The notes under the pieces: generated by a model | What the model saw: only the letters and a program-made list of their open reading frames with translations | What the model was told of the DNA's origin: nothing | Database searches by the model: none | In this document: positions 775 to 11,376 of the stretch, piece by piece | How the letters are laid out: each line of letters starts with the position of its first letter | Position numbering within the stretch: the stretch's first letter is position 1 | Origin: Nocardioidaceae bacterium | GTDB taxonomy: Bacteria; Actinomycetota; Actinomycetes; Propionibacteriales; Nocardioidaceae | Reading direction: 5' to 3' | Length of the DNA: 11,376 bases | Assembly (NCBI GenBank): GCA_020438665.1 | Contig: JAGQUE010000177.1 | Coordinates: forward strand, 1 to 11,376 | Translations under genes and position numbers: made by a program

Positions 775-2634
775 GTGCCGGAGGTGGGACGCTTGCTCCG
801 GGGTGCCGCCCGTCGCGTCCGGTCCGTCCTCGGCCGGCCCGTCCGACGCGGCCGCGCCACCGGCGAGGGCCGCGCGCCGTCCGACGGCGTACGCCGCATC
901 CTCGTCGAGGAGGCCACCAACCTGGGCCCGCTGTTCGACGCGGGGGTGAGCCGCTCCCGCCGCCGGATGAAGAACGCCGGCCTCGACGCCGACTACGACC
1001 TGGCCTACGAGCACTTCGACGTCAGCCACTTCCTCATGCAGGTCCGTCCGCTGCTGGCCGGCAACCGTGACCCGCTGGCCCACTTCCTCGGCAACGGTGC
1101 GGAGGCCAAGGCGAGTCCCGAGATCAACTTCGACATGGCGGCCTATCTCGCGCGCCACCCCGAGCGTGCCGGTGACCGCGAGACGAGTCCCTATCTGGCG
1201 TGGCTCAAGCGAGGGCGCGCCGCCGGCGAGATCGCTGACCCGGCCGTGGGCCTCGAGGAGCTGGCCCCGGTGCTGGGCCTGGAGGTCGCCGACGTGGTCG
1301 CCGAGCTCCAAGCCGTCCGCCTCGACGTCCAGGAGCGGCTGCGCACCGGCACCCTCGGTTCTATGGTGGCCAAGGCGGCGGAGATCGAGCCGCTCATCGG
1401 CGACGTCTGGCCCGAGACGGCACGGTTGCGCATCCCGCCCTTCGCGACCGACGTCTCTGCCCGCCAGGTCGCCGCGATCCACCGCTGTCATGCCCAGGCG
1501 GGCTTCCGCCGGGCCCGTGTGGTGCTGGTCGTCAGCGACCCGCGCTGGGGCGGCGGCCGCCGCGTGGAGGGCCACCTGGCACATGCCATGTCTCGGGCGA
1601 TGTCGGCCGACGACATCGTGGTCGTCTACACCGACACGGGAGGCGCCGGCCCGGTGGGGCGGTTCCCGGCCGGTGTGCGCGAGGTGAGCCTCGCGCCGGA
1701 GCTCGAGGGCTTCGAGGACGAGGACGTCTCCCAGCGGGTGCTGGTGGAGCTGCTCCGCTCGTTGCGCGCCGAGGTGATCGTCAACATCAACTCGGTGCTG
1801 CTCTATCGGGCCATGTCGACCTATGGCAAGGCGCTCGCCGCGTCGGAACGTATCTTCCTGGTGATGTTCGGCAACGAACAGATGCCGGCCGGCAACTGGG
1901 TCGGTCTGCCGTTGCGCTACTTCTATCGCACCTTCGACGCGGTCGCCGGCGTCGTCACCGACAGCCACCACCTGCGGGAGTGGCTGATCGAGCGACACCA
2001 GCTCCCCGACGAGATGTCAGCCCGGCTCCACGTCTTCAGCGCCCCGGTCGATCCGGCCGTGGGTCCGGTGCCGCCGTCCGAGCGCCCGCCGGGACGGCCT
2101 CCCCAGGTCTTCTGGGCCGGCCGGTTCGACCGGCAGAAGCGCGTGGACGTCGCCTTCCAGGTGGCTCGACTCATGCCCGACGTTGGCTTCCGGTTCTGGG
2201 GAGAGAAGGTCCTCAACGCACCCGGGGCCGGACCCAAGCCCGACAATCTCACCCTCGAGGGCCCCTATGGGCACTTCTCCGAGGTCCCCCTCGCCGACGC
2301 CGACGCCTGGCTCTACACGTCCGGGTGGGACGGGGTCCCGAGTCAGCTCCTCGAGGTCGCCATGACCGGCGTGCCGATCGTGGGCAGCCTCGTCGGTGGC
2401 ACCGGCGAGATCCTGGTCCCCGGAGAGTCGTGGCCGGTCGCCGACCTCGACAACCCCGCCGCCTATGTCGCCGCGCTGCGGGAGGTTCTGGCCGACCCGC
2501 AGGCCGCCCGCGCCAAGGCGGCCCGGCTCCGCGCCATGATGATCCAGGAGCGGAGTGAGGAGCGCTACGCCGAGCACGCCCTCGCCGTCCTGCTCGGTCC
2601 CCCTCGACCCGATGGGCCGGAGGGGGCGCCATGA
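775..2634 (+). CDS. GT4-type glycosyltransferase with N-terminal FD-YL repeat region (619 aa)
   Basis: The last third is a GT4 (GT-B fold) nucleotide-binding half. FWAGRFDRQKRVD (446-458) opens it, followed by WGEKVL (475-480), LEGPYG (494-499) and GWDGVPSQLLEVAMTGVP (517-534), where Glu527 and the later GGTGE (541-545) match the donor-site E-containing motif of this family. Residues 245-440 look like the acceptor-binding Rossmann half. The N-terminus differs from a standard GT4 of about 380 residues: residues 72-155 hold two copies of a motif seen at the ends of many polysaccharide glycosyltransferases, FDVSHFL...DPLAHFLGNGAEAKASP and FDMAAYLARHP...SPYLAWLKRGRAAGEI. There is no signal peptide or membrane segment, so it is probably cytoplasmic. 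The GTG start is chosen because GGGGGAG (764-770) sits 4 bases before it. It is the first gene of the plus-strand operon, and its TGA overlaps the next ATG. The sugar donor and acceptor cannot be inferred. Confidence 0.88.
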   Translation: MPEVGRLLRGAARRVRSVLGRPVRRGRATGEGRAPSDGVRRILVEEATNLGPLFDAGVSRSRRRMKNAGLDADYDLAYEHFDVSHFLMQVRPLLAGNRDPLAHFLGNGAEAKASPEINFDMAAYLARHPERAGDRETSPYLAWLKRGRAAGEIADPAVGLEELAPVLGLEVADVVAELQAVRLDVQERLRTGTLGSMVAKAAEIEPLIGDVWPETARLRIPPFATDVSARQVAAIHRCHAQAGFRRARVVLVVSDPRWGGGRRVEGHLAHAMSRAMSADDIVVVYTDTGGAGPVGRFPAGVREVSLAPELEGFEDEDVSQRVLVELLRSLRAEVIVNINSVLLYRAMSTYGKALAASERIFLVMFGNEQMPAGNWVGLPLRYFYRTFDAVAGVVTDSHHLREWLIERHQLPDEMSARLHVFSAPVDPAVGPVPPSERPPGRPPQVFWAGRFDRQKRVDVAFQVARLMPDVGFRFWGEKVLNAPGAGPKPDNLTLEGPYGHFSEVPLADADAWLYTSGWDGVPSQLLEVAMTGVPIVGSLVGGTGEILVPGESWPVADLDNPAAYVAALREVLADPQAARAKAARLRAMMIQERSEERYAEHALAVLLGPPRPDGPEGAP

Positions 2635-3386
2635 CCGACCTGACCGTGATCGTCACCGCTCACGACGAGACGGTGGTGAGCGGACCGACGATGCGGTCGG
2701 CCGACCAGGCGGTCGCCGTCGCTCGGGAGGCCGGGCTCTCGGTCCAGCCGATCATCGTGCTCGACCGGGCGACCGCCGGGACCACCGCCTATTTCACCCA
2801 GCCGCGGTTCGGACAGTGGGAGACGCGCGTCTTCCACGAGGGCGACCTCGGGCGGGTGCGCAACGCCGTCGTGCCCGACACCGACGGTCGCTTCGTCGCG
2901 TTCCTCGACGCCGACGACCTGTTCAGCGAGAACTGGCTGGCCGCCGGCGTCGCGGTGCTCGACGCCGCCCACGAGCGCGGCGAGCGGGCCATCGCCCACC
3001 CCGAGCTCAACATGGTCTTCGACGGCACCCGCTCCGTGCTGGTCAATATTCCGGACGACTCCCCGCTGTTCACGCCCTACTACCTCTATGTGCGCCACTA
3101 CTACGACTCGCTACTGCTGGCGCCACGCGAGGCGCACCTGGAGATCCCCTACGTCGGCCGCGACGTCCCCAACGGGTTGTCCTACCAGGACTTCCAGTTC
3201 ACGATCGAGACGTTCGCCGCCGGCTGGCGCCACCTCGTGGTGCCCGACACCGTGATCTTCAAGCGCCGCCGCGACTTCTCCCTCGTCACCGAGAGCAACG
3301 CCCGCAAGTCCGTGGTCCGGTCCCTTCCGGCGATGGCGATCGACCGGGTGGCCGAGCTCGCCCGCCCGACAGGGAAGAGCGGCTAG
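2631..3386 (+). CDS. GT2-type glycosyltransferase (251 aa)
   Basis: This is a compact GT-A fold enzyme that would transfer a sugar from a nucleotide donor to a growing glycan. LTVIVTAHDE (4-13) is the first strand and nucleotide-binding start. FVAFLDADD (88-96) carries the metal-binding DxD (Asp93, Asp95). NGLSYQDFQFTIETFAAG (181-198) corresponds to the acceptor/catalytic ED-type region, here with Gln-Asp, followed by HLVVPDTVIFKRRRDFS (201-217), reminiscent of GT2 domains found with rhamnan-synthesis proteins. At 251 residues it is a minimal domain without membrane helices. The ATG overlaps the stop of the GT4 gene as ATGA and has a strong ribosome site, GGAGGGGG (2619-2626), so the two are almost certainly translationally coupled and made together. 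The exact linkage formed is unknown. Confidence 0.87.
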   Translation: MTDLTVIVTAHDETVVSGPTMRSADQAVAVAREAGLSVQPIIVLDRATAGTTAYFTQPRFGQWETRVFHEGDLGRVRNAVVPDTDGRFVAFLDADDLFSENWLAAGVAVLDAAHERGERAIAHPELNMVFDGTRSVLVNIPDDSPLFTPYYLYVRHYYDSLLLAPREAHLEIPYVGRDVPNGLSYQDFQFTIETFAAGWRHLVVPDTVIFKRRRDFSLVTESNARKSVVRSLPAMAIDRVAELARPTGKSG

Positions 3387-3391
3387 CACCA

Positions 3392-3422
3392 GCCGGCCGG
3401 ACCCCTGGCCTCCGGCCCCGGC
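3392..3422 (+). terminator. GC-rich hairpin after the GT2 gene, possible weak terminator
   Basis: Six bases after the GT2 stop, GCCGG and CCGG (3392-3400) can pair with CCGG (3412-3415) and CCGGC (3418-3422). This gives a nine-pair stem with a 2-base bulge and an 11-base loop. No T-tract follows, which is common for actinobacterial stems. It lies in the only sizeable gap of the plus-strand operon (3387-3504) and might attenuate or end transcription after the first two genes. GC-rich DNA forms such stems often by chance. Confidence 0.35.
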
Positions 3423-3454
3423 GTGCCCGATCCAGGGCCGCTCGTGGCTCGGAC

Positions 3455-3460
3455 TAGGGT
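3455..3460 (+). promoter_or_regulatory. Candidate -10 element upstream of the epimerase gene
   Basis: TAGGGT at 3455-3460 fits the actinobacterial TAnnnT -10 pattern. It would place a transcription start about 38 bases before the GTG at 3505. No convincing -35 box is seen 16-19 bases upstream. It is listed because it sits in the operon's one real gap, after the possible terminator hairpin, and so could be an internal promoter for the four downstream genes. Confidence 0.22.
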
Positions 3461-3504
3461 GGTGGCGGCATGCGGATGCCACAGGTCATGGTTGAGGGGG
3501 ATGC

Positions 3505-4428
3505 GTGCGGAAGGTCCTGATCACGGGCGGAGCCGGCTTCATCGGTCGTCATCTCGCCGACCACCTCGTCGGTCGTGGCGACGTCGCCGTCACCGTTCTC
3601 GACAACGAGTCGCTGGGGGACCGCCACCAGCTCGACCTGGACACGGTCCGTTTCATCCACGGTGACCTGCGCAGCCGTGACGACGTGCGCCAGGCTCTCG
3701 AGGGGCAGGATGCCGTCGTCCATCTCGCCGCCGACACCCGGGTGATGGACAGCATCGCGGACCCCACGTTCAACTTCCACAACAACGTGGTCGGTTCCTT
3801 CAACCTGCTGGAGGAGTGCCGCGAGCTCGGCGTCGGTCGCGTGGTCGTCGCGTCGACCGGGGGAGCGATCGTGGGAGACGTCCAGCCCCCCGTCCACGAG
3901 GCCCTGGCCCCTCACCCCACCTCGCCCTACGGCGCCTCCAAGCTCATGCTCGAGGGCTATGTCGACGCCTTCTCGGCCTCCTACGGCCTCCGGGGGTGCG
4001 CACTGCGGTTCTCCAACATCTATGGGCCGCGCTCATGGCACAAGGGCTCGGTCGTCGCGCAGTTCTTCAAGACGATCCTGGCCGGCGAGCCGCTCGTGGT
4101 CTATGGCGACGGCAGCCAGTCCCGCGACTACCTCTTCGTGGGTGACCTCGTCGAAGCCATCGGGGCCAGCATCGACAGCGACGCGGTCGGAGCCATCCAG
4201 CTGGGCAGCGGACATCCCACCACGATCAACGAGCTGCTCGACGCCATGCGACACGTCGTGGGCCGCGAGCTCGACGTCCACTACGCCGACTTCCGGGCCG
4301 GCGAGGTCCGCGAGACCTGGTGCCAGATCGACAGGGCCCGCGACCTCCTCGGCTTCAACCCCACGACGTCACTCGAGAACGGTCTCCAGGTGACCTGGGA
4401 CTGGTTCACCCACCAGCCGCGAGGTTGA
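3505..4428 (+). CDS. NAD-dependent sugar-nucleotide epimerase/dehydratase (307 aa)
   Basis: This is an extended short-chain dehydrogenase of the UDP-glucose 4-epimerase-like group, acting on a nucleotide sugar in the cytoplasm. TGGAGFIG (7-14) is the NAD-binding glycine motif. VVHLAADT (71-78) and the STGG segment (117-120) line the cofactor site. Tyr142 and Lys146 in PYGASK are the catalytic pair, with Ser117/Thr118 as partner. LRFSNIYGPR (167-176) and YGDGSQSRDYLFVGD (200-214) are substrate-side motifs shared by UDP-hexose and UDP-HexNAc epimerases. The 307-residue length is usual. The GTG start is firm: an in-frame TGA lies 12 bases upstream (3493-3495), GAGGGGG (3494-3500) is the ribosome site, and the NAD motif begins at residue 7. 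It probably supplies a sugar donor to the neighbouring transferases. Sequence alone does not tell 4-epimerase from dehydratase or decarboxylase activity. Confidence 0.9.
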   Translation: MRKVLITGGAGFIGRHLADHLVGRGDVAVTVLDNESLGDRHQLDLDTVRFIHGDLRSRDDVRQALEGQDAVVHLAADTRVMDSIADPTFNFHNNVVGSFNLLEECRELGVGRVVVASTGGAIVGDVQPPVHEALAPHPTSPYGASKLMLEGYVDAFSASYGLRGCALRFSNIYGPRSWHKGSVVAQFFKTILAGEPLVVYGDGSQSRDYLFVGDLVEAIGASIDSDAVGAIQLGSGHPTTINELLDAMRHVVGRELDVHYADFRAGEVRETWCQIDRARDLLGFNPTTSLENGLQVTWDWFTHQPRG

Positions 4429-4442
4429 CGCGGGCCCGCACG

Positions 4443-5495
4443 ATGCCGACCACACCCGAACGTGTCCTGGTGCTCCATCTGGGCCTCCACAAGACCGCCT
4501 CGTCCTATGTCCAGAACCTCCTGGCGGCCCGCCGGTCGGATCTGCTGGCCGCGGGCATCCTCTATCCGCGGACCGGCACCGTCGAGGGGAGGTCGAGCAC
4601 CCGGGTGGGCGCCACCTCGGGCCATGCCCTGTTCACCCGTCCCCAGCGGGTGGCGGGGCTGATGAACAAGCTCCGCCAGGAGGTCACGGCCGACACCCAC
4701 ACCGTGCTGTTGTCGTCGGAGGACTTCACGCTGCGGCGGGCGGCCGATCCGCTCCAGTTCCGCCAGCTGCTGAGTGGGTTCGACAGGGTCAAGGCTGTGT
4801 TGGTGCTCCGGCGCCAGGACGAGTGGCTGCTCAGCTGGTACAAGCAGGCCGTCGACCAGTTCGCGAACGACGAGCGTCGTCCCTTCGACGTCTTCCTCGC
4901 GGAGGAAGGTCCGACGCTGCTCGACTTCTACACCAGGTTCACCCCCTGGCGTGACCTGGTCGGTATCGACGACTTCCACGTGCTGTCCTATGACGACCTC
5001 GACGGCGGCGCCGAGATCTGTCGGCGCATCCTCGAGGTGGCCGGGGCTCCGCGATCGCTGTGGCCCGACGACAGCCAGGGTGACGTGGCCCGCTACGACA
5101 GCATCCGCGCCATCGACACGCTGGGGCTGCGCATCCTCAACGCCTATCGGGTGGGCAGCCGCGACGAGCGCATCGCCCTGGCCCGGACCATCTATGGCCT
5201 GCGCCCGCCCGGCGACATCGAGCTCCTCACTCCGTCCATCCGGGCCGGGATCCACCAGTTCTGCGCACCCGTCAACGAGCGCATCGAACGCGAGTGGTTC
5301 GACCACCCCGTGCCCGGTCTCAGGTTCGGTGCCGTCCCGCCTCCGCCGGCAGCTCCGCCCACCTCGGCCGACCTGGTCGGCTATCTCGATGCGGTGCTGG
5401 CTGTCTGCGAGGCGGCCGAGGGGCGGTTGGTGCCCGAGGTCGAGCAACAGCGACGGCGCCTGGCGTCCGCACGGGCGACGAGGTCGGCCCGATGA
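4443..5495 (+). CDS. PAPS-dependent sulfotransferase-like protein, first of a tandem pair (350 aa)
   Basis: It would transfer a sulfuryl group from PAPS to a hydroxyl, most likely on a glycan given its neighbours. [18 protein letters not shown] (10-27) is the 5'-phosphosulfate-binding loop, with Lys17 and the following small/hydroxyl residues. [17 protein letters not shown] (119-135) is the 3'-phosphate motif, in the R-x6-S form (Arg124, Ser131). SGHALF (59-64), SSEDFTL (91-97) and [10 protein letters not shown] (177-186) are shared with the next gene. There is no signal peptide or membrane helix. The ATG at 4443 is chosen because the family alignment with the neighbour begins there; longer readings would run back into the epimerase gene. 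Only 14 bases separate it from the epimerase stop, with a poor ribosome site, which suggests coupling. Its stop overlaps the next start. The acceptor is unknown. Confidence 0.82.
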
Positions 5496-6568
5496 CTGAG
5501 CGTGCCGAGCTGGCCGCACGCGTGCGCGATCGGACCCTGGTCCTCCACATCGGTCTTCACAAGACCGCCACGACCTTCGTCCAGAACCTGCTCAGTGCCT
5601 GCCGCTACCCGCTGCTGCAGTCCGGGCTGCTCTATCCCAGCACCGGGCTGTCGGCCGCCGACACCGGCCAGACCCGCGACGGCGCCCAGTCGGGTCACGC
5701 GCTGCTGTCGCGGCGTGGTGCGTCGGTCTATGACAAGCTGTTGCCGGCCCTCTATCGCGAGCTGCCCGACGACGTTGCGACGGTCCTGGTCTCGTCCGAG
5801 AACTTCACGCTCTTCCAGCGTGGCGTCCAGCCGGACGAATACCTCGAAGCGTTCCGGGACTTCGGCCGCCTGAAGGTGGTGCTGGTCCTCCGTCGGCAGG
5901 ACACCTGGATCGAGAGCTACTACAAACAGCTCGTCGACTCCTACATCGACTTCGAGACCCGCTCGTTCGCTGCGTTCGTCGAGTCGGCCGGGCCCGAGCT
6001 CATGGACTTCTATGGCCGGTTCGGCGGCTGGCGCGACGCGGTCGGTGCCGACAGCTTCCACGTCGTGTCCTACGACGACACCCCCGGCGGAGTCGCGTTG
6101 GCGCGGGCCATCGTCGAGGCGGCCGGTGGCGACGGCTCGACCCTCGACGAGGCCGCACGCCTGCCACTCCCGGGCTACCACAGCGTCCGGGGCATCGACA
6201 CGATCGGGCTGCGGCTTCTCAACGCCCACCGGTTCCCCGATCGCGAGCAGCGAAGCGCGCTCGCCAGGTCGGTCTATGTGGCCCCGCCTGCGGGAGACCT
6301 GCGCCTGCTGACGCCCGAGATCCAGCGCCGTATCCAGGCCGACCACGCGGCGATGAACGCGCAGATCGAGAGCGAGTGGTTCCCCACCCCCGTGCCGGGG
6401 TTCCGGTTCGGGGCCGAGCTCGACCTGAGCTCCCCGACGCCCCCGAGCGGTGCGGAGCTGGCGGACTACGTCGACCGGGTCCTCGGTTGGTGCAACGACC
6501 GCCGGCGGCCCGACGACAAGACCGACGCCATCGTGGGTCGGAGCGGAGGGACGGCCACCGATGGCTGA
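5492..6568 (+). CDS. PAPS-dependent sulfotransferase-like protein, second of a tandem pair (358 aa)
   Basis: A clear paralogue of the preceding gene along its whole length, sharing the phosphosulfate loop [17 protein letters not shown] (18-34), SGHALL (67-72), SSENFTL (101-107), the 3'-phosphate motif [16 protein letters not shown] (131-146; Arg135, Ser142), [10 protein letters not shown] (187-196), [15 protein letters not shown] (233-247) and the C-terminal ESEWF...PVPGFRFG (293-307). The loop KTATT is closer to the general sulfotransferase consensus than the KTASS of its neighbour. The ATG overlaps the upstream stop as ATGA, with GAGG (5480-5483) upstream, so the pair is translated together. 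The C-terminal 40 residues are unique and probably flexible. Divergence between the two suggests different acceptors or positions, but that is inference. Its end overlaps the next gene by 8 bases. Confidence 0.83.
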
Positions 6569-9287
6569 CCGAGCCCTCACGCCGCTCACCGGATCCGCCT
6601 CGCTGCAGGGCCTGGCCGTCTTCGCGTTGTTCCGCGGCGACCGGACCCAGCTCCTCCAGTGGGCCAACGCCCATGTGAGCGCCGGAGCCGACCACGTCTA
6701 TGCCGTGTTGGATCGCCCCGTCCCAGGGCTGGTCGAGGGCTTGCCCGAGCACTCCCGGGTCACCTGGATGACCCTCGGGCAGCAGACCTGGGACCAGTTC
6801 TATGTGCCCGGCGGCGACAACGTCGAGCGCAAGCAGGTCGACGTCCTCCGTGTCGTGGCTCGGCGGGCCGCCGCCGACGGTCACGGCTATCTCGCCTTCG
6901 TGGATGCCGACGAGGTCGTGATGCTGCGGCAACCGTTCGACGTCCTGCGTGCCCGCTTCCCGGATGCCGACGTGCTGCGCCTCGGCGTGCGGGAGGTCTG
7001 GTATGCCGACGACGCCGGGCCGACCGCACCCTTCGCTGCGTCGCTCGCCCTGCGCCGGCCGGCGGGGCGCTACGACTGGAGCCGCGCCCTCGGCTGGCGG
7101 GCGCAGTTCCTGCGCGCCGGAGTCCTGGGCCACGACGGAGGCAAGTGTCTCTATCGGCTGCCCATCGCACCCGGGGAGGTCGGGGTCCACGGACCGGTCA
7201 GCGGTCACCTTCGCGAGCGGACCGTCGACGTCCCCGCCGACAGCGGAGACCTGCTCCACTTCGACGCCGGCAGCGTGAGCACCTGGAACGCCAAGTGGCG
7301 CTCGCGGCTCGATCGGGACACGGTGGCGTTCGGTCTGGGGCCGCACCGCAAGGCCCAACTGCAGCTGTTCGCCCACGCGTTGTCAGGTGGTGCGGACACG
7401 CAGGAGGCGTTCTTCAGGGGCTTCTTCACGCTGACCGATGAGGCCCGCGAGACGCTGGACCAGGCCTCGCTCATCGAGCCGGTCGACCTCGAGGTCGCGG
7501 TCAGTGGCCCCCTCCCGGTCACCTCAGGGGGAGGGCAGGCAGGGCCACCTTCGCGGCCTCCCCTCGACGGGCATCGGGTGGACTTCCAGTTCGCGATGGT
7601 GTGCGACCAACGGTTCGTGGCTCCCACCATGGCAACGATGCTGTCGGTGATCGCGCAGATCGGCGATCGGGGCAGCATCCGGTTCGTGATCCTCGGCGAC
7701 GGGCTGACACCGGCCCACGCGGCCCGCTTCCGCGAGGTCGAGCTCACGCCCTACGACGTCGAGGTCCGCGTCCACGACGTCACCAGTGACCTCGACCGCG
7801 ACGTCGGGACCGAGGACGCCAAGCGTGCGACGTTCGGTCGCATCTACCTCATCGACCACCTGCCCCCGCAGCGAACCATCTATCTGGACGGGGACATCCT
7901 CGCGACGCGCGACTTCACCGAGCTCTTCCGGCTCGACCTTCAGGGAGCCTGCCTGGCCGGCGTCACCGACAGCGCGGCGCTGCGCCTGGACGCGAACCCC
8001 GCCGGGGTCCCCATCGAGCAACGGATGCGGCTGGTCGGGATCACCCGTGGCGACCCGTCGGACTATCTCAACGGCGGGGTGCTGATCTTCGACCTGGACA
8101 ACCCCGACTTCCAGCGCCTGGCCCTGGAGGCTCGCAGCCTGGTCGTCACACGAGGCCGCTCCCTCAAGCAGCGCGACCAGGATGCGATGAACCTGGCGTT
8201 CGCCGGCCGCAAGTATCGCCTGCCCAACACCTACAACTACATGACCCAGTTCTATGTCTCCGACCGGTGCGTGGACGAGGGCCTTCCGGCCGTCAAGTAT
8301 GCCCATGCCGACGCCAGCCTCATCCACTTCTCCGGGGCGGTGAAGCCGTGGGAGCACTCGGAGGCCGAGTTCTACAACGGGCTCTATCGCCGGCTGGTTC
8401 ACGAAGCCGAGGAGCGGCTCGGTGTGAGCAGCGGCCTCTATTTCTCACTCCCTGCCCGCTCGCCTCGCGAGGCCTGGTCGCCGCAACGCTGGGCCGACGT
8501 CCTGGGCGCCCCCGACCGGCCGTCACCTGACGCCGAGCGCACCCCGGACCTCGAGCTCGTCGACATCACGGCCGACGGCGTCTATGTGAGGATCTCGACC
8601 GACCTCCTCCGGCTGGCCAGGAGGCAGGATCTCGTGCTGCGCATCGAGTCGCGCGGGCAGGAGCTCGCCACGCTGCCGCTGTCGGCGCTGTCCCCTCCTC
8701 TCGTCCGGCTGGTGGCGTCGACCCGTCCTGGCGTGAGGAGGCTCCCGCTGGACCTCGAGGCTCTGCTGGCGGGCACCGACGGGATCGCGCGCGACGTCGA
8801 GCTGACCCTGGCGGCCCCTCAAGCGCTCGACGGGTTCTCCCGATGGGTCGCAGGGAGCCGGCTCCTGGCCGCACCGTCGGCCGCCACCGCTGGGCTGATC
8901 GAGGAGATCGGGATCCGCGCGGCCGTCACTGGTCTCGCCGACGGGATGCTGTCCGGGTGGTGCGACATCGACACGCTGGGTCAGCGGCCCCGGCTGTCGA
9001 TGCACGTGGCCGGGGAGCTGGTCGCACGGCTGCGCCTCGAGCCCTCCCTCGACGACCAGAGGGCGATGTTCTCCGTCCCGGTGGCTGACCTCGTCGGCCG
9101 GGGCTACCCCTCCGATGCTCCACTGACAGTCCGGATCCCGGCGACGAACGTGCCGGTGCCGGGTCCCCGTGTGACGATCGGCATGCTGGGCGAGCCGGCG
9201 TCGACGCGCTCGGCGCCCTCGACAGAGGCCGACACCGGACGAGGAAGGCCGCGGACGCGGTGGCGCCGGGGTCGCGAAGCTCAGTAG
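6561..9287 (+). CDS. Two-domain glycosyltransferase: GT2/GT92-like plus GT8, with C-terminal beta-type modules (908 aa)
   Basis: One uninterrupted frame carries two catalytic domains. Residues 15-300 resemble the Glyco_tranf_2_4/GT92-like group: [19 protein letters not shown] (20-38), then YLAFVDADE (110-118) with DxD Asp115/Asp117, and LLHFDAGS (231-238). A Gly/Pro/Ser-rich linker (315-337) follows. Residues 340-612 are a GT8 domain: [12 protein letters not shown] (344-355), [10 protein letters not shown] (439-448) with DxD Asp443/Asp445, [13 protein letters not shown] (501-513), RDQDAMN (538-544) and HFSGAVKPW (589-597), the family's metal-binding HxxGxxKPW. Residues 660-870 look beta-rich, and 790-845 ([13 protein letters not shown]..., [10 protein letters not shown]...) resemble small modules found at the ends of other glycosyltransferases. 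The tail is basic. ATG 6561 is chosen from GGAGGG (6545-6550) and the 8-base overlap with the sulfotransferase gene. Both DxD motifs are intact, so both domains may be active. It ends the plus-strand operon. Confidence 0.88.
7507..7536 (+). other. Stable RNA hairpin at the junction between the two glycosyltransferase domains
   Basis: Bases 7507-7516 pair with 7527-7536, giving a ten-position stem with one mismatch (7511/7532) and one G-T wobble (7513/7530), around a 10-base loop. It lies inside the gene, exactly where the flexible linker joins the GT2/GT92-like and GT8 domains. It may slow ribosomes between domains, mark an old fusion point, or only reflect Pro and Gly codons of the linker. 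Confidence 0.3.
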
Positions 9288-9991
9288 TCGTAGACCTCGA
9301 AGTCCTGGGCATAGAGCTGTTCGACCCGCGACACGAGGTCGGGGCGGCCGTCGAAGACGCTCCGCTCCCGCTGGCGTCGGGAGATGTTGCGGGACTCCGC
9401 CGGCAGGAACGGCAGCCCGGCCTCGTCGCGGATCCGTGCGATGTCGGCCGAGAACGTCTCCAGCTTGCCGACGTGGTCGAAGGTGATCAGGGGATGGAGC
9501 AGGTTGAGGTGCTGAGGCCGCCAGTGGCGGTCCATCTCGGTGAGCGGGTCTTGGCGCTCCACGGCGCTGAGGAACTCCTCGAAGGTGACTTCCCGGTCAC
9601 CGGCGTCCTTGATCTCGAGCAGGTCGAGGGCGTGCTGGCGCCACACGCGTGAATAGACCACCTTGTCCCAATAGGCCGACTCGATGCGTCGCAGGGGGTG
9701 GCGCACGAAGCTGAACCGATAGGCGGAGCCGTTGAGCATCGACAACATCCGGTCACGGCCCAGCTCCGCCACCGTGGGCACCCGATGGTCTTGATGGATG
9801 CGGGCCGGGGACTCGGACTCACCCGTGTGGAGCTGGTCCAGCCACGTCACGATCGTCGAGCAGGCCGCCTTGGGATTCTTGACATAGAACAGTTTCCAGT
9901 CAGGCACGGCCAACAGGTAGCGGCCGGGATGACGGCCCGGGAAATAGGACTTCACGGAACGCCACGTCGTGGGTTGCGCTGACACAGGCAT
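9281..9991 (-). CDS. Sulfotransfer_2-type carbohydrate sulfotransferase (236 aa)
   Basis: It resembles the carbohydrate sulfotransferase family (Sulfotransfer_2, the HNK-1/chondroitin sulfotransferase type) rather than the plus-strand pair. LFYVKNPKAACSTIVTWL (34-51) is the phosphosulfate loop, with Lys41 and Cys-Ser-Thr (44-46). YRFSFVRHPLRRIESAYWDKV (91-111) is the 3'-phosphate motif (Arg97, Ser105). HWRPQHLNL (156-164) and VGKLETFSAD (174-183) are typical later motifs, the first probably near the acceptor site. There is no signal or membrane helix, unlike the Golgi enzymes of animals, so it should act in the cytoplasm on precursors. Its ATG shares one base with the stop of the upstream paralogue (TGATG), so translation is probably coupled. 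Its last 7 bases overlap the end of the convergent glycosyltransferase gene. Confidence 0.87.
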   Translation of the reverse strand: MPVSAQPTTWRSVKSYFPGRHPGRYLLAVPDWKLFYVKNPKAACSTIVTWLDQLHTGESESPARIHQDHRVPTVAELGRDRMLSMLNGSAYRFSFVRHPLRRIESAYWDKVVYSRVWRQHALDLLEIKDAGDREVTFEEFLSAVERQDPLTEMDRHWRPQHLNLLHPLITFDHVGKLETFSADIARIRDEAGLPFLPAESRNISRRQRERSVFDGRPDLVSRVEQLYAQDFEVYDY

Positions 9992-10722
9992 CAGTATCCG
10001 TAGAGCTCGTAGTCGGTCGCATAGATGGTCTCGACCCGCTGCACGAGGTCGGGCCGGCCGTCGAAGACGCTCGTGTCGGCCCGTCGTGAGACGTTGCGCT
10101 GGGGGGCAGGCACGCGTGGCAGCCCCGCCTCCTGCTGGATGGCGTCAAGATCCGCAGCGAACGACTCGAGCCTGCCGATGCGGTTGAACCGGACTACCGG
10201 GTGAAGCAGGTTGAGGTGCTGGGGCCGCCAGTGCGGGTCGCAGTCGACCGAGCTCACCTGGTGCTCCACCGCGTCGAGGAACTCCTCGAAGCCGACGGTG
10301 CGATCCTCAGCCCCGAGGATCCCCAGCAGCCCGAGCACGCGGGGACGCTCCTTGTGGTCGGGAACCACCTTGTTCCAATAGGTCGACTCGAGCCTCGTCC
10401 GTGGGTTGCGCACGAAGCTGAACCGATAGGCCGACCCACCAAGCATCTCGAGGAGCCGGTCGCGACCGACCTCTCGAAGCCGGGGGAGTCGGTGCTGTTG
10501 GTGGATGTTGCCCGGCGGGGGCGGACTCCCGGTGTGCAGGTGGTCCAGCCAGGCCAGGATGGTCGAGCAGCCGGCCTTGGCGTTCTTGACATAGACGAGG
10601 TCGTGGTCGGGCAGCGCCAACACGAACGTGCCGACGTGGCGCCCGGGGAAGAACCGCTTGACCGCCCGCCAGGGCACCCCGTCCATCTGCGTGCCGGTCG
10701 TGCCGGTGGTGCCGGGCGGCAT
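9991..10722 (-). CDS. Sulfotransfer_2-type carbohydrate sulfotransferase, tandem paralogue (243 aa)
   Basis: A close paralogue of the following gene. LVYVKNAKAGCSTILAWL (42-59) is the phosphosulfate loop (Lys49, Ser53, Thr54), YRFSFVRNPRTRLESTYWNKV (99-119) the 3'-phosphate motif (Arg105, Ser113), and HWRPQHLNLLHP (164-175) and SVFDGRPDLV (218-227) are shared exactly. It lies between the UDP-sulfoquinovose synthase gene (3-base gap) and its paralogue (1-base overlap), so all three form one operon. The start at 10722 fits the tight spacing, but the first 12 residues (Gly/Thr-rich) have no match in the paralogue and no clear ribosome site. An alternative ATG at 10686 (MDGVPW) would align better. 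The role is presumably sulfation of the same glycan at another position or on another residue. Confidence 0.87.
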   Translation of the reverse strand: MPPGTTGTTGTQMDGVPWRAVKRFFPGRHVGTFVLALPDHDLVYVKNAKAGCSTILAWLDHLHTGSPPPPGNIHQQHRLPRLREVGRDRLLEMLGGSAYRFSFVRNPRTRLESTYWNKVVPDHKERPRVLGLLGILGAEDRTVGFEEFLDAVEHQVSSVDCDPHWRPQHLNLLHPVVRFNRIGRLESFAADLDAIQQEAGLPRVPAPQRNVSRRADTSVFDGRPDLVQRVETIYATDYELYGY

Positions 10723-10725
10723 GGC

Positions 10726-11376
10726 TCAGAGGTGGTGGGGGGCGTTGTCGGGGATGCCCGCCTTGTGGTCGCTGTTCCAGACCGAGTAGCACGGGATCCG
10801 GTCGACGTCGCACCGGTCGGCGTACTTGCGGGTGATCTCGGTGACCTCCTCCATCAGCCCGTCGCTCAACGTGATCGGGTCGAGGCCGAGGTGGAGGAAA
10901 CGATCGTTGGCGACGTGGAGCTCGTTCTCGTCGGCCTCGTTGCGCGGGTTGGAGACGAGGGCGATCTCGGCGCCCGTCCGGTCGGAGATCATCTGGGCGA
11001 GGTCGCGGACGCGGTGGGTCTCGGTCATCTGGTTCATGATCTGGACCCGATCGCCGCGCTCCGGCGGGTTCTCCAGCGCGAGCTGGATGCACTTGACCGT
11101 GTCCTGGAGGTGGATGAACGCCCGGGTCTGGCCACCGGTGCCGTGCACGGTCATCGGATAGCCGATGGCCGCCTGCATCAGGAAGCGGTTGAGCACCGTG
11201 CCGTAGTCGCCGTCGTAGTCGAACCGGTTGACCAGCCGCTCGTCGAGCTTGGTCTCGGCTGTCTGGGTGCCCCACACGATGCCCTGGTGCAGGTCGGTGA
11301 TCCGCACGTGGTCGTTCTTGGCGTAGTAGGCGAAGAGCAGCTGGTCCTGCGTCTTGGTCATGTGATAGATGCTGCC
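10726..11376 (-). CDS. sqdB: UDP-sulfoquinovose synthase (SQD1/SqdB/Agl3 family), C-terminal 216 residues
   Basis: These enzymes make UDP-sulfoquinovose from UDP-glucose and sulfite using bound NAD, putting a sulfonate on C6. The visible part starts just before the catalytic YHMTK (fragment residues 4-8; Tyr4, Lys8). It then shows features I associate with the SQD1 subfamily and not with ordinary epimerases: TDLHQGIVWGTQT (27-39), RFDYDGDYGTVLNRF (51-65), YPMTVHGTGGQTRAF (73-87), QDTVKCIQLALENP (91-104), NQMTET (115-120), NPRNEADEN (143-151) and LGLDP (163-167), with a C-terminal IPCYSVW (194-200). The N-terminal NAD-binding glycine motif lies outside the window. The fragment continues in frame to the last base. 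Two sulfotransferase genes follow 3 bases and 1 overlapping base apart, linking sulfosugar synthesis to sulfation. Confirmation of function needs the missing half, and a related NAD-dependent activity cannot be fully excluded. Confidence 0.82.
   Translation of the reverse strand, partial: GSIYHMTKTQDQLLFAYYAKNDHVRITDLHQGIVWGTQTAETKLDERLVNRFDYDGDYGTVLNRFLMQAAIGYPMTVHGTGGQTRAFIHLQDTVKCIQLALENPPERGDRVQIMNQMTETHRVRDLAQMISDRTGAEIALVSNPRNEADENELHVANDRFLHLGLDPITLSDGLMEEVTEITRKYADRCDVDRIPCYSVWNSDHKAGIPDNAPHHL

Follow-up and report, generated by a model that had tools for sequence, protein, structure and literature searches.

The stretch of DNA analyzed here, 11,376 nucleotides from a Nocardioidaceae bacterium (contig JAGQUE010000177.1 of assembly GCA_020438665.1; hereafter the window), ends in the truncated gene of a UDP-sulfoquinovose synthase of the SQD1/SqdB type (10726..11376, − strand), which is very probably the 3′ portion of a gene that joins CysH, of the adenosine 5′-phosphosulfate (APS)/3′-phosphoadenosine 5′-phosphosulfate (PAPS) reductase family, to SQD1. 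We propose, with a probability of roughly 0.62, that the locus makes a glycan (a polymer, a glycolipid or a protein-linked chain) carrying both sulfoquinovose and sulfate esters, and that it does so by way of this CysH-SQD1 fusion. The C-terminal 216 aa of the synthase encoded in the window match the Arabidopsis SQD1 structures (1qrr/1i24) with an E value of 1.6e-46, and all 216 are identical to residues 462-677 of three database proteins of 677 aa each (P0015, P0017, and P0018), every one of which has a CysH half. It is because this tail is unchanged in the three proteins that we assign the window gene to such a fusion; the join itself would lie beyond the window edge.

The fusion was found repeatedly in other genomes. 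Genome contigs were scanned with the synthase fragment and the best 80 of 591 loci were taken; in a Nocardioides metagenome-assembled genome (MAG; locus L002), a Nocardioidaceae MAG (L003) and a MAG labelled Proteobacteria (L004), the synthase frame continues upstream into a CysH domain, and Pfam recognizes PAPS_reduct (133-144 bits) together with Epimerase. Among homologues of the CysH half, all 120 of the matches listed, from 946 at E ≤1e-20, carry PF01507 together with PF01370/PF16363, a proportion conditional on length, since this search admitted proteins of 377-1200 aa only and so favoured fusions. A second search, with a query from L004 and likewise limited to long proteins, found fusions in Isoptericola and others and both domains in 119 of the 120 matches listed (P0136 being the exception), again conditional on length. 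Without length selection, 294 Nocardioidaceae genomes drawn evenly from the larger family were surveyed with at most three candidates scored per genome, and among the matches listed a CysH of the fusion type shares a single open frame with SQD1 in 10 of them; a fusion-type CysH beside SQD1 but out of frame was met in none of the 294. The ten include G002 and G003, both known beforehand, and in G003 two reported pieces make up one 724-aa frame. The linkers between the halves span 33-98 aa (136 of 156 proteins parsed, the proteins having been selected by length). Where the fusion proteins bear a name in the databases, it covers one half, mostly as phosphoadenylyl-sulfate reductase or UDP-sulfoquinovose synthase, and our searches of the open full-text literature gave no description of a CysH-SQD1 fusion. 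The recurrence of the fusion, and of the gene set that accompanies it, is well supported.

Both halves retain their active-site residues. In the window, the equivalents of Tyr182, His183, and Lys186 lie close to the start of the fragment, and P0015, P0017, and P0018 have the full SQD1 set, that is, the equivalents of catalytic Thr145, Tyr182, and Lys186 and the HFxEQR motif (HFAEQR in P0015, which also has the His183 equivalent). The three catalytic equivalents and HFAEQR are invariant in all 40 rows of alignment A1, which comprises 38 of the 156 proteins and two loci. These full-length proteins with the identical tail bear out the preliminary description of the window, in which the SQD1-like gene had been taken for a relative of UDP-sulfoquinovose synthase. 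In Agl3, alanine at the His and Arg of HFxEQR, and at Tyr182 or Lys186, abolished activity, and T144A retained it (PMC4388408). The CysH half of P0015 keeps the APS-reductase cysteines 109, 110, 192, and 195 and the catalytic C220 (ECGIH), and its closest solved structure is the APS reductase 2goy (E 5.8e-48), with which it shares the CC, CxxC, and ECGIH motifs and from which it differs in having a second domain. The window excludes the CysH region; the fused homologues have the PAPS_reduct domain, the Fe-S cysteines and the catalytic ECGIH cysteine, and score 249 bits with NF002537 (cut-off 154) and 235.0 bits with TIGR02055 (cut-off 235.3). Since the CysH half is thus nearest to APS reductases (2goy and TIGR02055), its substrate is likelier to be APS than PAPS, as far as can be judged from sequence.

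We consider it very unlikely that the role of the fused CysH is in ordinary cysteine biosynthesis, or that the SQD1 half makes some other C6-modified nucleotide sugar. Such a reading would accord with the name phosphoadenylyl-sulfate reductase that NCBI gives to the fusions, and with the low score of the SQD1 half, 339-350 bits (P0015, 339) against a cut-off of 575, in the NCBI model NF041015 (UDPsulfquin_syn equivalog). This model seems narrow, however, since only one of 14 control genomes passed the cut-off, and the cut-off is not decisive against function, since the Sinorhizobium meliloti gene at the sqdB position (332 bits) also falls below it; four second actinobacterial SQD1 copies score 463-471 bits. 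Against this reading stand a second, divergent CysH (35-41% identity) elsewhere in at least seven of the 10 fusion genomes (G002, G003, G108, G111, G237, G239, and G250), beside which the fused CysH is an extra copy, and the intact catalytic and HFxEQR residues; separate CysH genes, moreover, repeatedly adjoin the synthase in alphaproteobacteria. Altogether CysH adjoins the synthase in nine of the best 80 of 591 loci, fused in three and separate in six (L012, L031, L038, L041, L045, and L047), where a rough model with one CysH per 3.5 Mb would give about 0.16 CysH neighbours among 80 loci by chance (our home-made gene caller lost genes in L009, L045, and L047). Further separate CysH genes stand beside the same type of synthase in L139, L161, L166, and L167. 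In the first two the genes are same-strand neighbours; on two alphaproteobacterial plasmids, the genes beside the synthase are annotated as phosphoadenylyl-sulfate reductase. A pathway link between reductase and synthase has a precedent in Leucomyxa, a colourless ochrophyte for which a plastid PAPS reductase was proposed in 2024 as a source of sulfite solely for the synthesis of sulfoquinovosyl diacylglycerol (SQDG; PMC11528492). The proposed flow, from reductase to sulfite to SQD1, is the same, but there the enzymes are separate plastid proteins of a eukaryote and here they form one polypeptide beside sulfotransferases, so that the precedent lowers the novelty of a reductase as sulfite source and not that of the fusion, which was itself not found in print.

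The fused frame also contains what looks like an internal start. Of 11 fusion loci, 10 have a Shine-Dalgarno-like 5-mer just 5′ of the Met of SQD1, whereas two of the 165 remaining in-frame ATGs in these open reading frames are preceded by one, and the residues encoded at this site vary (EGK, GGN, GGE) while the purine run is kept. Such a site is what one would see if there were no bifunctional protein, the internal start being the true SQD1 start and the open linker a relic, and Nocardioides immobilis (L001), in which a decayed CysH stretch (L001:9244-9445) lies upstream of an intact SQD1 start, agrees with that. We nevertheless regard it as quite improbable: all 10 fusion genomes have an uninterrupted frame leading from CysH into SQD1, across linkers of the lengths given above for the length-selected proteins, and L137 (from G133), the one exception among the 11 loci, lacks a Met where SQD1 normally starts and hence requires either the fused frame or a start farther upstream. 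From these features we conclude that the fused protein is in all likelihood produced, and free synthase may also be produced from the internal start.

The window genes were called from open reading frames with a codon model and a Pfam profile search, and nine are of interest, namely three glycosyltransferase genes, one epimerase gene, four sulfotransferase-like genes and the truncated synthase gene, which confirms the gene list of the preliminary description. The + strand carries a GT4 glycosyltransferase with an N-terminal extension (775..2634; PF00534, 34.5 bits, and PF13692, 31.5 bits, both above cut-off), a GT2 glycosyltransferase (2631..3386; PF00535, 25.8 bits), a GalE-like NAD-dependent nucleotide-sugar epimerase (3505..4428; PF01370, 194.9 bits), for which the closest solved structures are UDP-glucose 4-epimerases (E 3.4e-55), the sulfotransferase-like proteins ST_A1 (4443..5495) and ST_A2 (5492..6568), and a two-domain glycosyltransferase made up of GT2_4, GT8, and an unassigned C-terminal part (6561..9287; PF13704, 34.8 bits, and PF01501, 99.5 bits). 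The − strand carries, next to the synthase, ST2_b (9281..9991) and ST2_a (9991..10722), two carbohydrate sulfotransferases of the Sulfotransfer_2 family (PF03567, 95.2 and 72.1 bits, respectively; cut-off 22) with P-loop and RxPxxRxxSxY-like motifs (KNPKAACSTIVTWL and FSFVRHPLRRIESAY in ST2_b, KNAKAGCSTILAWL and FSFVRNPRTRLESTY in ST2_a), which we take to be the PAPS-binding motifs usually so named; a phmmer search with ST2_a against solved structures gave no match at E 1. ST_A1 is silent in Pfam and has a P-loop motif, and ST_A2, 45% identical to it, has the motif and sub-threshold matches to Sulfotransfer_4 and Sulfotransfer_3. The structure model of ST_A1 shows the heparan-sulfate-type sulfotransferase fold with the 5′ P-loop, at 10-14% identity to the heparan sulfate N-deacetylase/N-sulfotransferases (NDST) and 3-O-sulfotransferases, from which it also differs in being bacterial; its identity, at first a guess from the motif, was retained after this fold test, and on the model ST_A1 is a predicted sulfotransferase. 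ST_A1 and ST_A2 are the Pfam-silent pair among the four sulfotransferase-like proteins.

Much of this gene set accompanies the fusion elsewhere. The surroundings of the 10 fusion genes were read over 8-20 kb each, and homologues of the GT4 and GT2 proteins are near the fusion in all 10 loci, the best GT4 copies being 44-62% identical in most loci (27% in L138) and the best GT2 copies 62-77% (41-42% in L134 and L138). The epimerase is near the fusion in eight of the 10 genomes at 70-76% identity (in G002 on a further stretch, L145), and a sulfotransferase-like gene lies within about 13 kb of it in nine of the 10 loci; the remaining one, L134, is cut off by the contig edge, as is L002, and the genome of L134 has sulfotransferase matches on another contig. 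PF03567 was found in nine of the 10 genomes with the fusion and in 101 of the 284 without it (Fisher p 8e-4), and strong matches to an ST_A/ST_C profile (≥169 bits) in eight of 10 and one of 284 (G256; p 3e-13), or in six of eight and one of 284 without the two genomes that contributed to the profile (p 2e-10), values that are a guide only, since the compared genomes are relatives and the p-values overstate their independence. The ST_A/ST_C survey scored at most seven candidates per genome over the 294 genomes, and among the matches listed 24 reach ≥169 bits, followed by a gap down to 88 bits. The preliminary description had made its proposal depend on the gene groups occurring together in related genomes; they do, in the Nocardioidaceae fusion loci and also on an alphaproteobacterial plasmid.

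Based on these data, we put forward a hypothetical pathway in which activated sulfate (APS) would be divided between two routes. In the first, the CysH half would reduce APS (less likely PAPS) to sulfite, which the SQD1 half, tethered to it by the linker, would join to NAD-activated UDP-glucose to give UDP-sulfoquinovose, and the conserved internal ribosome site would probably also give free SQD1. In the second, an APS kinase encoded elsewhere in the genome would make PAPS, with which the Sulfotransfer_2 proteins and the proteins of heparan-type sulfotransferase fold would sulfate hydroxyl groups of the sugars. Supplying these sugars and joining them, in whatever order, would fall to the GT4/GT2 pair, the GT2_4-GT8 protein and the epimerase, and the product may be a glycolipid, a protein-linked glycan, or a polymer completed by genes elsewhere. 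Rather more tentatively, and at somewhat less than even odds, we suggest that one polypeptide makes sulfite and hands it straight to UDP-glucose without toxic free sulfite, that the internal site determines how much free synthase is made relative to the fused form, and that one actinobacterial envelope glycan carries sulfonate and sulfate esters drawn from a single APS pool.

Besides the NF041015 scores and the relatedness of the compared genomes, several observations weigh against this proposal. The fusion is rare, being found at class level in three of 394 genomes (among the matches listed, with at most three candidates scored in each), and the apparent longer fusions in two class-level genomes with long frames (G350 and G503) were rejected, as tblastn found no CysH in them. 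Modelled in full length by AlphaFold, the fusion gave a poor structure (mean predicted local distance difference test score, 63.5), too poor for conclusions on site-to-site geometry. PF03567 is linked to the fusion in seven genomes; G003 has none, and the copy in G087 is 2 Mb off. L133, the locus of G087, has only a sulfotransferase-like sequence of the ST_D type, which is below the Pfam cut-off (17.9 bits in L003, cut-off 27), and all that likens the ST_C proteins to sulfotransferases is a distant similarity to ST_A1 (21-24% in the L003 pair). Only one of the 10 fusion loci (L002, 53%) encodes a close homologue of the GT2_4-GT8 protein. Gene lists of the Nocardioidaceae loci, read by eye with Pfam on selected proteins, showed neither a priming transferase nor a polymerase, flippase or ABC exporter, and the genes that flank the set are housekeeping genes (by eye; ftsY, amtB, glnB, and smc among them); a self-contained surface-polysaccharide locus is not supported. 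As for the PAPS genes that the preliminary description had proposed to look for, cysC, cysN and cysD were not seen in the loci, and an APS kinase is present elsewhere in nine of the 10 fusion genomes. This kinase is equally common in comparison genomes (18 of 20; ≥187 bits), does not discriminate, and was rejected as a marker of the system.

A related set occurs in other phyla. On a plasmid of Rhodobacteraceae M382, 25 kb hold an SQD1 (73% identity), a GT4 (27% over 539 aa), a GT2 (38%), an unfused CysH (33%), an epimerase-like protein (31%), a relative of ST_D of L003 (43%) and a Pfam-supported sulfotransferase. In L004, the fusion is part of an exopolysaccharide-type locus that also encodes a Wzc-type kinase, a WcaJ over its cut-off, a Pfam-supported sulfotransferase, and a protein read as a flippase on just 23 bits to a profile, and the Roseovarius locus L011 has SQD1, an epimerase (53%), a GT2 relative and an ABC exporter (by eye). 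The view of the preliminary description, that the two kinds of sulfur chemistry go together, is supported by these three loci. The glycan island may instead yield two products, a sulfoquinovose-bearing glycan and a separate sulfated one, an alternative that we rate as possible if unlikely. It draws on the window, where the ST2 genes and the SQD1 gene are on the opposite strand from the glycosyltransferase block, and on the two GT2/GT4 sets in L131, L132, L135, and L136. It is countered by the related set on the alphaproteobacterial plasmid and by the sulfotransferase-like gene that comes directly after the synthase, in the same orientation, both in the window and in L131, L132, and L138, as a single transcript would predict.

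The other alternative concerns a sulfoquinovosyl lipid: the SQD1 half would feed an SQDG-like lipid, and the sulfotransferases would belong to an independent neighbouring glycan. The S. meliloti gene used for comparison is 64-66% identical, adjoins a GT8 protein, as we presume SqdD to be, and lies between ybgC and ruvB, the site that we take to be that of sqdB. In a tree of 110 synthases (79 of the 80 scanned loci and 20 of the 156 proteins, hand-picked, among them; a quick method with SH-aLRT support only), it falls on the window-type side, on a long branch of unsure placement. SqdB, SqdC, and SqdD of S. meliloti are named for the synthesis of phosphorus-free membrane lipids (PMC10315480), and the sqdBDC operon of Rhodobacter and Sinorhizobium (named in PMC11346425) resembles the window in combining an SqdB-type enzyme with a GT8 neighbour, the window too having a GT8 domain. 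The S. meliloti record differs, however, in that neither CysH nor a sulfotransferase is annotated up to 6 kb from the synthase and tblastn gave no CysH; a stand-alone GT8 beside SQD1 was not seen in the 10 fusion loci; close GT2_4-GT8 relatives are in the window and L002 alone; and the ST_A/ST_C types track the fusion (8/10 as against 1/284), which a chance neighbourhood would not lead one to expect. Looked at for a sulfoquinovosyl transferase of the SqdD/SqdX type beside the synthase, the fusion loci showed the GT4 and GT2 genes and no stand-alone GT8. We judge the lipid alternative improbable and set a plain SQDG operon aside as the principal explanation, keeping it as a rival.

In the same tree, the fused rows require four state changes, at least three of them forced by starred branches, and the standalone synthase of L001 sits within the fused group, which implies more than one gain or loss of the fusion rather than demonstrating a single origin. 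Placing the SQD1 half in one type with the second actinobacterial copies was considered and rejected, as those form a separate side of the tree and occur in another context, with a GtrB-like GT2 and a membrane protein. This second paralogue was observed in Nocardioidaceae (L142:9290-13235, L146:6875-11197, L147:9016-13926, L148:8253-12854, and L149:8308-12315) beside a GtrB-like GT2, a large probable membrane protein and sometimes a GtrA-like protein (by eye; Pfam on L142), the GtrA and GtrB labels being our presumption, and the arrangement suggests sulfoquinovose borne on polyprenyl phosphate. Another SQD1-type gene (62%), on a plasmid of Rhodococcus qingshengii (L165:4875-16390), is accompanied by a SulP anion transporter, a glycosyltransferase, and a protein with an alkyl-sulfatase domain, and a putative UDP-sulfoquinovose synthase is known from a Mu-like virus (PMC7785012).

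In essence, the proposed mechanism is a UDP-sulfoquinovose pathway with a built-in source of sulfite set among glycan sulfotransferases, its activities, sulfite hand-over and doubly modified product being predictions. Like SQD1, SqdB, and Agl3, the synthase half belongs to the short-chain dehydrogenase/reductase family, with catalytic Thr and Tyr-x-x-x-Lys and the HFxEQR motif; it differs from them in its N-terminal fusion to an APS/PAPS reductase, in its linkage to sulfotransferases and in a branch apart from the second actinobacterial copies. A partner protein that binds SQD1 is known to channel sulfite, and here the partner would be covalent and of a sulfite-making enzyme family. The binding of that partner goes back to Shimojima 2005, as cited in PMC4388408, a paper that in 2015 described the way in which UDP-sulfoquinovose synthases transfer sulfite in vivo as still unknown. 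With the Agl3 locus of Sulfolobus acidocaldarius, our locus shares the grouping of the synthase with glycan genes; there, sulfoquinovose is part of the archaeal S-layer N-glycan, and the genes named in the passages cited include no sulfotransferase and no CysH (PMC4388408). With a natural reductase-synthase fusion, and with the two genes repeatedly adjacent in unrelated bacteria, sulfite hand-over could be tested on a single purified protein. From the heparan-type sulfotransferases linked to the fusion one would predict a bacterial glycan that bears sulfonate as well as sulfate, which, if true, would widen the known sources of sulfoquinovose beyond sulfolipid and archaeal N-glycans.

Some minor features of the loci were also observed. 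A single open frame of 996 aa in L133 (L133:9519-12509) seemingly combines a GT4 with an ST_D-type sulfotransferase-like part, and probable secreted proteins of about 480-550 aa are encoded inside loci at L133:7110-8549 and L135:5585-7228, the one in L135 having no Pfam match. L131 encodes a TylF-type methyltransferase (L131:16449-17390; 148 bits), compatible with a possible O-methyl group on the glycan. At the start of the window, a secreted protein with a fasciclin domain (1-604, − strand) is encoded divergently from the glycan genes.

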